Source: Methanomicrobia archaeon (GTDB taxonomy: Archaea; Halobacteriota; Syntropharchaeia; Alkanophagales; Methanospirareceae). From it: a stretch of DNA of 47,397 nt. Under the pieces are notes generated by a model. The model was given only the letters and a program-made list of their open reading frames with translations. It ran no database searches and was not told where the DNA came from. The stretch spans positions 1 through 47,397 of the forward strand of contig JAFGHB010000066.1 of the NCBI GenBank assembly GCA_016930255.1, in the 5' to 3' direction. The number at the start of each line of letters is the position of its first letter. Positions within the stretch are counted from its first letter, which is position 1. The position numbers were made by a program, and so were the translations under genes. Of this stretch, positions 11,011-33,834 are shown piece after piece.

Positions 11011-11081
11011 TGCGGCAACCGGGGCTCGAACCCGGGTTAGAGGCTTGGGAAGCCCCTGTCCTGCCACTAGACTATTGCCGC
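11011..11081 (-). tRNA. tRNA-Gly (anticodon CCC)
   Basis: On the minus strand the sequence folds as a complete cloverleaf. The 7-bp acceptor stem pairs GCGGCAA with TTGCCGC. The D arm contains AGTGGCAGGAC, the anticodon loop TTCCCAA sits on a GGGGC/GCCTC stem, and the T arm is CCGGGTTCGAGCCCCGG. A is the discriminator base and CCA is not encoded. No intron. Its 5' end starts inside the last five codons of rpoL, which lies upstream on the same strand. Confidence 0.93.
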
Positions 11082-11378
11082 TTTGTACTTCTGCGCAAAC
11101 TCCTCAAAATCAGACGCTAGTGAAGCGACAGCGGACTTTATCGCTTCCACGGGATCCCCTTCCTTCATCTTCACGAACAATACCGGGTTGCTTCTCAGCG
11201 TATGCTCGATGGTGTAGGTTGCAATGTCTACCTGCTCATTATCGAGCAGCTTGGACGCGAGTGGCGCTAAAAGGGTATGATCCTCCCCGTCTATCTCTAT
11301 CCGTATCTCTTTATCCTTCCGCTCCACTATTCGTACCTTCTTGGGTTCTTGTTCAAGTTCGCGTTCTTCTGTCGCCAT
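11067..11378 (-). CDS. rpoL: DNA-directed RNA polymerase subunit L (Rpb11-like)
   Basis: This 103-residue protein matches archaeal RpoL, which dimerises with RpoD and is part of the polymerase assembly platform. Conserved signs are IRIEIDGEDHTL in the first half, a YTIEHTL strand and NPVLFVK, followed by the dimerisation helix. An N-terminal charged extension of about 15 residues precedes the conserved region, which is longer than the commonest form. It lies just downstream of csl4, a pairing common in archaea. The TAG stop at 11067-11069 lies within the tRNA-Gly gene: codons GCG GCA ATA GTC TAG form the first 15 bases of the tRNA. Confidence 0.92.
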   Translation of the reverse strand: MATEERELEQEPKKVRIVERKDKEIRIEIDGEDHTLLAPLASKLLDNEQVDIATYTIEHTLRSNPVLFVKMKEGDPVEAIKSAVASLASDFEEFAQKYKAAIV

Positions 11379-11417: not shown

Positions 11418-11981
11418 TTATATCAATCCCTTACCGTAATCTTCAGACATCTTCCGTACTTCTACCCGCTTGCAGCGCTCACATGCCAGCGTATTCCCCT
11501 TCCTTTTCAGATCGCCTTTGCATTTCACGCAAATCGCTTTTATCACGCCTAAGTCTTTCCCATCGGTGCTCAGCCGCAACGCCTTTGCGTCTATCACGCG
11601 CGCCCTCACCAAGTCAAGGTAACCGAACTCGTGCTGCAATTCGTTCACATAGCCGCTCTTTACGTTTGAGATGTGGATAACACCTTGAGTGGAAGCGGCA
11701 ATTGCACGCTCCTCATGACCTTTCATGCACGCGATATTAACGACCGCGATCGTGTCCCGTATGTCCTCGATCCGGCCCAATACCACATCGCCTTCTTTCA
11801 GCGTTGGCGGTGTCTCCACCTTTGGTTGAACCTCTATAACCCTTTTATCCGTTATATTAACTCCTCCCGTCACTGTAGCATATATATTCCCCTTCTCATC
11901 ATACACACCACTGCCTGGCGTGAACTCTTCTGATGTGCCCAAGAAATCACCCGGCACTACAAATCCCTTTTCGTTCTCCAT
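11418..11981 (-). CDS. csl4: Exosome complex component Csl4
   Basis: This 187-residue protein has an N-terminal strand domain opening with FVVPGDFLG, a central S1 RNA-binding domain (GDVVLGRIEDIRDTIAVVNI, ending near IHISNV) and a C-terminal zinc ribbon with two CxxC pairs (CVKC and CERC). That is the domain order of archaeal Csl4, a cap subunit that recruits RNA and DnaG to the 3'-5' RNA exosome. It precedes rpoL on the same strand by 39 bases, consistent with co-transcription. It is divergent from ruvC. Confidence 0.93.
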   Translation of the reverse strand: MENEKGFVVPGDFLGTSEEFTPGSGVYDEKGNIYATVTGGVNITDKRVIEVQPKVETPPTLKEGDVVLGRIEDIRDTIAVVNIACMKGHEERAIAASTQGVIHISNVKSGYVNELQHEFGYLDLVRARVIDAKALRLSTDGKDLGVIKAICVKCKGDLKRKGNTLACERCKRVEVRKMSEDYGKGLI

Positions 11982-12052
11982 TCACTTTTCTCCTTCTTTC
12001 TCTTACACTTCTCCCTTAATACTTTACTTCAATGCTATTTATTAGTTTAGGT

Positions 12053-12556
12053 ATGCGTGTAATAGGCATAGACCCGGGGACTGCGCGAACTGGCTGGGGT
12101 GTTATCGAGTTCAGTAACTGCACCTTAAAAGCAGTCACGTTCGGCTGTATCAAGACGACCACGAAGCAATCAGGCGGGGAACGATTAAAGCTGATTTATG
12201 AGGAGTTGCTCGAATTGATAGCGGAGACGAAGCCGGACGAAATGGCGATCGAGAAAATCTTCTTCAACACCAACGTGAAAACGGCCTTGAGCGTTGGCCA
12301 GGCGCGAGGTGTCTGCATCTTAGCTGCTGCCACCATGGGAATGCCGATAGCCGAGTACAATACTACCGAAGTGAAGAATTTTATGACCGGCTACGGCCGG
12401 GCGGCAAAGAGCGACGTAGCGAACAGAGTAAAGGAATTGCTTCAGTTAGAGGTAATGCCAAAGCCGGACGACGTCACCGACGCCCTCGCCATTGCCGCCA
12501 CACATATAACACAGAAGTTGAATTTGGATTTGGGTGGGCTAGGCATTCAACAGTAA
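12053..12556 (+). CDS. ruvC: Crossover junction endodeoxyribonuclease RuvC (bacterial type)
   Basis: This 167-residue protein has the full RuvC pattern. The catalytic acids are D7 in GIDPGTARTGWG, E67 in AIEKIFFNTN, and D140 and D143 in KPDDVTDALA. The FNTNVKTALSVGQARG stretch is the DNA-binding loop-helix region typical of bacterial RuvC. RuvC dimers resolve Holliday junctions by symmetric cleavage. Archaea generally use Hjc, so this is uncommon. No ruvA or ruvB lies nearby, although in bacteria all three are often linked. The ATG at 12053 matches the family start; a frame open to 12032 would add seven residues. The 3' end overlaps the convergent EMC6-like gene by 18 bases. Confidence 0.93.
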   Translation: MRVIGIDPGTARTGWGVIEFSNCTLKAVTFGCIKTTTKQSGGERLKLIYEELLELIAETKPDEMAIEKIFFNTNVKTALSVGQARGVCILAAATMGMPIAEYNTTEVKNFMTGYGRAAKSDVANRVKELLQLEVMPKPDDVTDALAIAATHITQKLNLDLGGLGIQQ

Positions 12557-12832
12557 TCCGAACGTGACAAACCAGCAGAAGATAGTCATAAAGGAGATAT
12601 AAAGCCAATCTTTCGGCCCCTCGATGTTCATGTGGAAGAGCGGATAGACGAATTTCTGCGCCATGACCAGGAGGATCGCAATAAGCAAGCCATCGGACGA
12701 TGTAGGATCGGCTACCGCATAGAGTGATATAAAGCCCGCGATAACACCGCATAAAGCAGGTATAACCGTTTTTACTATGCCTTCCACGTATTCTTTCTTT
12801 TTTTTATCCACCGCGGTCTTCTCGGTCGCCAT
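12539..12832 (-). CDS. EMC6-like small membrane protein
   Basis: This 97-residue protein has a charged N-terminus, then three hydrophobic helices at about 22-40, 47-62 and 75-95. The IPALCGVIAGFIS segment and the closing KDWLYISFMTIFCWFVTFGLLLN are characteristic of archaeal proteins in the EMC6/Rab5-interacting family. In eukaryotes that family is part of a membrane-protein insertase complex; in archaea the role is inferred. A TATA-like ACTTATATAG at 12864-12873 lies about 35 bases before the ATG, implying a very short leader. The gene converges on ruvC with an 18-base overlap. Confidence 0.72.
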   Translation of the reverse strand: MATEKTAVDKKKKEYVEGIVKTVIPALCGVIAGFISLYAVADPTSSDGLLIAILLVMAQKFVYPLFHMNIEGPKDWLYISFMTIFCWFVTFGLLLNA

Positions 12833-13048: not shown

Positions 13049-13624
13049 TTGACAAAAGTACCGAAGAAGGAACCGAAGCGAGAGGTAGGAGATGAGGAGG
13101 TTGCAGAGGCCCAGGTAGAGGTCCCCCGCGCTGAATTAGAGCGATTGAAGCAAGAATTGACGGCGAAGACTGAGTTAACAGACGAGTATTTATCGCGACT
13201 GACATACCTCCAGGCGGATTTCGAGAATTACAAGAAGATGGTGGCTCGCGAGCGTGAGCGGTATGAGCAGTGCGCGACGGAGGGGTTAATAAAGCGCTTA
13301 TTGCCGCTTATCGATACCGTTGAGGCGGCTCTTGCGTCTGCTGAGACGTGTGAGGATCTGAAGTCGTTCGTTACCGGAATTGAGCTAATCTATAAGGATT
13401 TAATAGACGAACTGAGCAAAGAGGGGTTGAAACCGATAAAAGCAGTTGGCGAGAAGTTTGACCCGTATAAGCACGAGGTAGTGATGGCGGTCATGGATAC
13501 CGACCATCCGGAAGACACCATTCTGGAAGAGCTTGAGAAAGGCTATATGCTGGGTGCGAGAGTGCTACGGACCTCGAAAGTGCGGATTTCAAAAACGCCT
13601 CCCGCGCCTCCAAACGCGGAATAG
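13049..13624 (+). CDS. grpE: GrpE, nucleotide exchange factor of Hsp70
   Basis: This 191-residue protein has the GrpE layout. A charged N-terminal tail leads into a long helix (residues about 25-75) with RLTYLQADFENYKKM, then a four-helix region and a beta domain with GEKFDPYKHEVVM and VLRTSKVRISK. GrpE dimers release ADP from DnaK. The start is a TTG with GGAG about 9 bases upstream. dnaK and dnaJ usually follow grpE in archaea that have the system, but the next gene here is on the other strand, so they must lie elsewhere if present. Confidence 0.93.
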   Translation: MTKVPKKEPKREVGDEEVAEAQVEVPRAELERLKQELTAKTELTDEYLSRLTYLQADFENYKKMVARERERYEQCATEGLIKRLLPLIDTVEAALASAETCEDLKSFVTGIELIYKDLIDELSKEGLKPIKAVGEKFDPYKHEVVMAVMDTDHPEDTILEELEKGYMLGARVLRTSKVRISKTPPAPPNAE

Positions 13625-32580: not shown

Positions 32581-33834
32581 ATGGCTGATTCATACGCACG
32601 ACGACGCTACACCATCGTTGGCATTGATCCGGGCACGACGGTGGGAATTGCCATGATCGACCTCCGGGGCAAACTGGTAGAAGTATTCAGCGCGAAGAAT
32701 TATTCGATTTCAGATGCCATAGCATGGATCGCAGCGCGTGGAAGGCCTTTGATCGTCGCTTCTGACGTTACGCCTACACCCGCGATGGTGAAGAAGATAA
32801 GCAGTGTCTTCGCTTCTCCGGTTCATGACCTGGGCGAATCTCTGTCCACGGACGAGAAGATCGCACTGACGAAAGGCGAAGATTACGAATACAAAAACGC
32901 CCATGAGCGAGACGCATTAGCAGCCTGCGTTAACGCGTTCAAGCACTACAAGAGAAAATTCACACAGGTGCAGAAGAAGACGCCCGCGGGTGTAAATGTG
33001 GAAGTGGTAAAGGCGATGGTGGTACAAGGCGTGTCAATAAGCGCGGCCATAGACCGGCTGATCGCTCCTGAAGAGGAGAAAGAGCAAGTTACGGAAGAGC
33101 CAAGGCAGAGCGAGGGCGATAGCGGTGTGGAGCGTGAGCGGGATGGTAAAACGATCCTCAGATTACGTGGTCTCCTGAAGGATAAAGACGCGCGAATCGA
33201 GCTGCTGGAAGAACGCATAACAGCGCTCGAGACACGTTTAGAAGAAGGGGAGTGGGAGAGAGCACGCTTGAAGCGGAAACTCGATTCCACACGTTCAGCG
33301 AGTACGAGAGCGTTGAAAAAAGCGGAAGAGATACGAAAGCGGGACCGGGCGATTGAAAGCTTGAGAGCGGAAGTGAGAGCGCGCGAGCAGGAGAAAGCAG
33401 AGCTAAGGGGCATCATCGAGGCCCTGAAAGGCGGAGGGAAACGAGATGTACAGGGTGGAAAGAGGATTACGGTGATACAAACGTTCAGCCATGATGCGAT
33501 CGTGGATGCCGATAAGAACTACGGGCTTAACAAAGGCGATGTCGTGTTCCTTAAAGACGGCAGTGGCGGTGGGGCAAGTACTGCGGAACTATTGGCGAAG
33601 AAAGGTATCGTTGCGGTAATCTACGGCAAAGAGCTCTCGCATTTCGCTGTTGATACCTTCTCTCAGTTTGATATTCCTACGTTCTCCACGCACGAGCTAC
33701 CGCTGCTGTCAATCGGTGATGATGATGAAGAAGAGGGAGCGTTCGCTTTTGTGGATCTGCACCTTCTCAACGAGCGGATGGAAGAATGGAAGCGGGCGCG
33801 GCGGGAAAAGGAGGTGGTACTGCTAAATCGTTAA
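32581..33834 (+). CDS. DUF460 RNase H-like protein with coiled coil
   Basis: This 417-residue protein starts almost immediately with the RNase H-like fold: GIDPGTTVGIAMIDL, then IVASDVTPTP and NAHERDALAAC, with the probable catalytic Asp and Glu. It corresponds to the DUF460 domain, a predicted archaeal nuclease related to YqgF/RuvC. A long coiled coil follows at about 190-290, and a C-terminal domain closes the protein (GDVVFLKDGSGGG, VDLHLLNERMEEW). Family members I know are often about 600 residues with an additional N-terminal region; that region is missing here. TTTTATAT at 32545-32552 lies about 30 bases before the ATG, implying a leaderless mRNA. Confidence 0.85.
   Translation: MADSYARRRYTIVGIDPGTTVGIAMIDLRGKLVEVFSAKNYSISDAIAWIAARGRPLIVASDVTPTPAMVKKISSVFASPVHDLGESLSTDEKIALTKGEDYEYKNAHERDALAACVNAFKHYKRKFTQVQKKTPAGVNVEVVKAMVVQGVSISAAIDRLIAPEEEKEQVTEEPRQSEGDSGVERERDGKTILRLRGLLKDKDARIELLEERITALETRLEEGEWERARLKRKLDSTRSASTRALKKAEEIRKRDRAIESLRAEVRAREQEKAELRGIIEALKGGGKRDVQGGKRITVIQTFSHDAIVDADKNYGLNKGDVVFLKDGSGGGASTAELLAKKGIVAVIYGKELSHFAVDTFSQFDIPTFSTHELPLLSIGDDDEEEGAFAFVDLHLLNERMEEWKRARREKEVVLLNR

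Follow-up and report, generated by a model that had tools for sequence, protein, structure and literature searches.

The ruvC gene and its locus

The window, which is the whole stretch of 47,397 nucleotides analysed here, contains a bacterial-type ruvC gene placed between exosome and RNA polymerase genes on one side and a gene for an EMC6-like protein on the other, as the initial annotation had described. The locus comprises the following features:

11067–11378, minus strand: rpoL-like RNA polymerase subunit gene (NCBIfam RpoL model, 89 bits, under its own cut-off of 103; assigned with the aid of synteny)
11418–11981, minus strand: csl4, exosome subunit (NCBIfam Csl4 equivalog, 200.8 bits versus a cut-off of 90)
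12053–12556, plus strand: ruvC, encoding a crossover junction endodeoxyribonuclease of 167 aa with D7, E67, D140, and D143 as catalytic acids
12539–12832, minus strand: EMC6-like membrane protein gene (PF19094, 84.8 bits; synteny)
13049–13624, plus strand: grpE (PF01025, 148.9 bits)

Upstream of ruvC, csl4 and the rpoL-like gene are divergent from it, with the rpoL-like gene downstream of csl4. The EMC6-like gene is downstream and convergent, its 3' end overlapping that of ruvC by 18 bases (12539–12556), and grpE comes next. Elsewhere in the window, the DUF460 protein noticed earlier (32581–33834) did match PF04312, with 124 bits; we take it to have an RNase H-like fold.

The open reading frame at 12053–12556 was confirmed as a full-length bacterial-type RuvC, with family membership and catalytic residues intact. 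It matched Pfam RuvC (PF02075) over profile positions 1–148 of 148 (157.6 bits, E 2.6e-46, cut-off 22.2) and exceeded the curated cut-offs of the NCBIfam RuvC equivalogs NF000711 (197.1 versus 163) and TIGR00228 (133.9 versus 100.65). An in-frame ATG at 12032 could extend the protein by 7 residues; the Met at 12053 is the start in most homologues. The closest solved relatives by sequence were bacterial RuvCs, E. coli RuvC (1hjr) being the top one. An AlphaFold model built from a 15-sequence alignment (pLDDT 91.7, pTM 0.88) superimposed on 1hjr with a TM of 0.89 and an rmsd of 1.4, and a structure search with this model returned bacterial RuvC chains as all of its top twelve matches.

Alignment with E. 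coli RuvC placed D7, E67, D140, and D143 opposite the E. coli acids D7, E66, D138, and D141, and F70, K108, and K119 opposite F69, K107, and K118, respectively. All seven residues are identical in the 44 distinct ANME-1 RuvC sequences, so the four acids, already listed as intact for the window protein, are intact throughout this set. A simple codon count, made on equal-length pairs alone from 12 chosen loci, gave ruvC dN/dS values of 0.06–0.24 in the 25 listed pairs of lowest dS, indicating that ANME-1 ruvC is under purifying selection.

The host family of the window is ANME-1/Methanophagales, a group of methane-oxidising archaea, and the host genome has a completeness of 95.5% and a contamination of 0.9%. 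Named relatives of the window RuvC, at 67–79% identity, come mostly from Methanophagales/ANME-1 assemblies. Among 38 named ANME-1 loci (L031–L068, including L053, labelled Candidatus Nitrosotalea, L064, labelled Methanomicrobiales, and L044, labelled Candidatus Syntrophoarchaeum), csl4 adjoins ruvC in 31, the EMC6-like gene in 32, and both in 29, which answers the initial question of whether relatives share the gene at this position. In some ANME-1 genomes grpE belongs to the ruvC locus as well, and in genus g5 of ANME-1 ruvC is located elsewhere. When ANME-1 genomes without RuvC were approached through the Csl4 locus, the gene order of the genus differed and a clean empty ruvC site was not established. 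The GC content of ruvC (0.516) and its GC3 (0.643) resemble those of nine other window genes (0.466–0.545 and 0.559–0.642, respectively). As a side observation, L053 has an ANME-1-type rpoL-csl4-ruvC-EMC6-grpE locus, suggesting a mislabelled or mixed assembly.

Distribution of RuvC, Hjc, RuvA, and RuvB

HMM searches detected RuvC in 44 of 48 ANME-1 genomes, and found Hjc (PF01870, E 1e-3) and RuvA (RuvA_N) in none of the 48. A lenient Hjc search of 15 ANME-1 genomes, with E up to 5, disclosed scattered sub-cut-off matches only. No RuvB over cut-off was present in the 47 ANME-1 genomes scored, at seven candidates per genome; the RuvB_N search, which scored nearly all candidates, gave generic AAA+ scores except in one genome (G017). 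This genome, which lacks RuvA, encodes a divergent RuvB-like AAA+ protein with both RuvB_N and RuvB_C (L271, 2493–3470, minus strand), whose frame of 326 residues reached 183 bits on the RuvB equivalog versus a cut-off of 299. The same models gave high RuvA and RuvB scores in G052 and G054, two genomes of the same class as ANME-1, in which RuvA, RuvB, and RuvC are all present at separate places. Judged by the RuvA and RuvB models, ANME-1 is without the RuvABC resolvasome and, judged by the PF01870 nuclease, without the archaeal Hjc pathway.

At the thresholds used, no RuvA or RuvB was found near ruvC or anywhere in the window's genome, and no hjc was found in that genome. The lack of RuvAB neighbours remarked on in the initial annotation thus extends genome-wide and family-wide. 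Its suggestion that RuvC might work in parallel to Hjc was not supported, given that Hjc was found in 0/48 ANME-1 genomes and that the lenient search of 15 gave no confident match.

The four ANME-1 genomes without RuvC are also without Hjc, which implies either that RuvC is not strictly required or that another resolvase exists. In two of these four, G023 and G032 (94% and 93% complete, respectively), the searches recovered neither RuvA nor a true RuvB either. In Alkanophaga volatiphilum RuvC is present and RuvB was not found.

The phylum-wide sample comprised 294 genomes, 85 of which have a RuvC over the cut-off. This count leaves out G077, whose match has an internal stop and falls below the cut-off (E 5e-4); including it would give 86. 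PF01870 matched in 136 of the 294, comprising 107 confident matches (E <=9.1e-30) and 29 weak ones (3.6e-6 or worse). RuvC and a confident Hjc never occur in the same genome (0/294), and six genomes, all outside ANME-1, combine RuvC with a weak Hjc-like match; the mutual exclusion of RuvC and Hjc holds only for confident Hjc. A Fisher test on the two enzymes ignores genome relatedness and overstates significance, and it is the pattern by family that we regard as evidence. In 79 of the 294 genomes the searches gave no RuvC above the cut-off and no PF01870 match of any strength, which means that another resolution route must exist somewhere. A control genome, Methanosarcina acetivorans, likewise showed neither RuvC nor Hjc by the same searches.

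The weak PF01870 proteins of G166, G142, and G295 represent one conserved protein of ~155–165 aa that is barely over the Pfam cut-off; only G295 is among the six genomes with RuvC and a weak Hjc-like match. One such weak protein scored 19 on the NCBIfam Hjc model, where the cut-off is 70. A conserved, weakly Hjc-like family (22–24 bits) was seen at L265 (844–1383, minus strand), L278 (947–1468, plus strand), and L279 (965–1468, minus strand), with the same neighbour genes each time. This family is possibly a divergent Hjc.

RuvB exceeded the cut-off in 41 of the 294 genomes, all 41 of them RuvC-positive, and mostly lies beside RuvC. The 44 genomes with RuvC and without RuvB consist of 43 ANME-1 genomes and one Alkanophaga. 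In methanogen-like genomes ruvC, ruvA, and ruvB are adjacent; in one of these, G071, the genes have four-base overlaps and both RuvA and RuvB pass their equivalog cut-offs. In G062, a genome consisting of a single contig, the ruvB match at G062:C1:602448-603360 extends over two overlapping frames, owing to a frameshift or a sequencing error, and the adjoining ruvC is intact.

Origin and sequence divergence of ANME-1 RuvC

Phylogenetic analysis placed the RuvCs of ANME-1 and Alkanophaga on one branch with a support of 100/99. The RuvCs of the f5 genomes G052 and G054, which have kept RuvAB, join this branch at 98/76, or at 99/89 in a second tree from which two long rows were dropped. The archaeal RuvCs split into a few clades placed among the bacterial ones, including separate branches (starred in the tree) whose members we presume to be Methanocella-like and Methanomicrobiales-like. 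The trees were computed on thinned sets (92 of 156 rows for RuvC and 45 of 107 for RuvB), with ANME-1 rows taken from sampled loci rather than from every RuvC-positive genome, and with a bacterial RuvC set that is mostly Bacillota. In the proposed phylogeny check, the ANME-1/Alkanophaga branch is well supported, and a single archaeal RuvC clade is absent from the best tree and not rejected (p-AU 0.21). The same applies to a single archaeal RuvB clade (p-AU 0.49).

The initial annotation had raised lateral transfer as an explanation. This stands for a remote ancestor, consistent with archaeal clades nested among bacterial RuvCs, and fails as a recent event, since the gene occurs in 44/48 ANME-1 genomes, is mostly syntenic, and belongs to a clade widespread in the lineage that groups with the sister lineage Alkanophaga. 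Such a clade is what the initial annotation had named as grounds for refutation. Together these data support vertical inheritance of the window RuvC within ANME-1, with lateral transfer probably confined to that remote ancestor. A mobile origin, for which the earlier reading had seen no sign, was rejected together with bacterial contamination and recent transfer on the basis of the conserved locus, the single clade, and the matching base composition, seen in many separate assemblies. The close-relative search found no relative in viral_contigs. Phage RuvCs are distant, the best-ranked having 48% identity, and plasmid RuvCs reach 49% among those listed.

Comparison of 45 ANME-1/Alkanophaga RuvCs with 111 other RuvCs, most of them from lineages expected to carry RuvAB, revealed eight columns (69, 103, 104, 106, 110, 121, 125, and 150) that are at least 85% conserved in the latter and changed in most of the former. 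Residues 103, 104, 106, 110, 121, and 125 are T, P, Q, A, Q, and M, respectively, in 102–111 of the 111. The number of changed conserved sites as such was rejected as exceptional: ANME-1 has 8/47 and other clades have 0–7 changes, with 6/55 in Methanomicrobiales-like RuvCs, 7/47 in two proteobacterial sequences, 5/48 in f5, and fewer in others. Changes at individual positions of the stretch recur elsewhere as well; both proteobacterial sequences carry A instead of P at 104, and in T. thermophilus RuvC residue 103 is G and residue 121 is E. Six of the eight columns fall within residues 103–125 (scan P 0.005, post hoc). Only this clustering appears notable, and we treat the signature as a possible lead only. 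The stretch aligns with M108, K111, and K122 of T. thermophilus RuvC, residues that the structure paper (PMC3834835) places at or near DNA.

A tentative extension, which we regard as rather doubtful, is that ANME-1 and Alkanophaga resolve junctions by a stand-alone RuvC that has lost its connection to RuvAB and works with recombination factors of archaea instead. The 103–125 cluster would then mark either an abandoned surface for the RuvAB hand-off or a new surface for the junction or a partner. If so, the clustered substitutions would be a natural experiment that maps the RuvC–RuvAB interface.

Proposed role of RuvC in ANME-1

ANME-1 RuvC shares its sequence family, fold, and catalytic and key contact residues with bacterial RuvCs (E. 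coli 1HJR, T. thermophilus 4LD0, and D. radiodurans 7XHJ). It differs in lying on an archaeal chromosome beside exosome and RNA polymerase genes, with RuvA and RuvB not found. Hjc, whose cellular role we propose RuvC to share, belongs to a restriction-enzyme-like family (PF01870) unrelated to RuvC, and was not detected in ANME-1. A RuvC-like resolvase that acts stand-alone is that of Lactococcus phage bIL67 (4KTW), which is far more distant (TM 0.68, 18–19% identity) than the bacterial enzymes; unlike it, ANME-1 RuvC is chromosomal with a conserved position. Within the same phylum, a 2012 study (PMC3403352) reports RuvABC in only two of 97 archaea examined, both Methanomicrobiales, and suggests a recent transfer; these are Methanoregula boonei and Methanospirillum hungatei, and the study interprets their RuvC as acquired from bacteria. 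ANME-1 differs from them in being without RuvA and RuvB and in having its RuvC on a separate branch. As archaeal resolvases, the literature names Hjc (PMC7690668) or Hjc and Hje (PMC8708640). Full-text searches, which covered few subscription papers, found no paper on RuvC in ANME-1; a match for RuvC and ANME-1 concerned Methanoperedens plasmids and is unrelated.

We consider it probable that ANME-1 relies on a functional, vertically inherited RuvC, in place of Hjc, to resolve Holliday junctions. Replacement of Hjc fits better than duplication because Hjc is not detectable in ANME-1, and RuvC most likely resolves junctions alone, given that it is retained intact and that no other known resolvase was detected. 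In the history that we infer, the phylum would have acquired a bacterial ruvC-ruvA-ruvB system in one or a few events, and Hjc would then have been lost in RuvC-bearing lineages. The ruv operon would have become scattered in the class of ANME-1, and ruvA and ruvB would later have been lost in the ANME-1/Alkanophaga branch, leaving RuvC as a stand-alone resolvase.

Dimeric two-metal cleavage is established for bacterial RuvC. By analogy, we infer that the ANME-1 enzyme would bind the four-way junction as a homodimer and cut two opposing strands symmetrically, D7, E67, D140, and D143 holding two metal ions for cleavage, and that it would do so as the sole resolvase. Branch migration, if needed, may be left to an archaeal helicase; Hel308 (Hjm) and Hef are candidates.

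Other readings of the data can be weighed against this one. RuvC may be active and yet not be the main resolvase, with nucleases such as Hef processing the intermediates and RuvC confined to a narrower repair role or to other branched DNA. This is in line with the RuvC-less ANME-1 genomes, which gained no Hjc, and with the 79 phylum genomes that have neither enzyme, and the substitutions clustered near DNA-contact residues could reflect a shift in substrate. We judge it unlikely, as the catalytic and contact residues specific for junctions are all retained and the presence of RuvC is complementary to that of confident Hjc. Continued pairing with a RuvAB-like motor, be it a RuvA and RuvB so divergent as to escape recognition or a different AAA+ helicase, appears improbable: the RuvB-like protein of G017 that would suggest it occurs in 1/48 ANME-1 genomes, RuvA_N occurs in none, and the models that failed in ANME-1 recognise both subunits readily in G052 and G054.

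That the gene is instead a recent transfer, part of a mobile element, or a bacterial contaminant in the assembly is scarcely credible. RuvC does belong to a bacterial family, with genes for it on phages and plasmids as well, but ruvC recurs across dozens of distinct ANME-1 assemblies, for the most part at the same locus. Its GC and GC3 resemble those of nine other window genes, and the close-relative search showed no relative among viral_contigs.

A resolvase role for RuvC in place of Hjc would mean that, in whole families among the sampled genomes of the phylum, a bacterial-type enzyme takes the place of the archaeal one. The comparison also exposes a gap, namely the 79 genomes and the Methanosarcina acetivorans control in which the same searches recover neither enzyme. 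ANME-1 would offer a natural example of RuvC without RuvAB, with implications for the way in which RuvC locates junctions and for the exchange of information-processing enzymes between domains.
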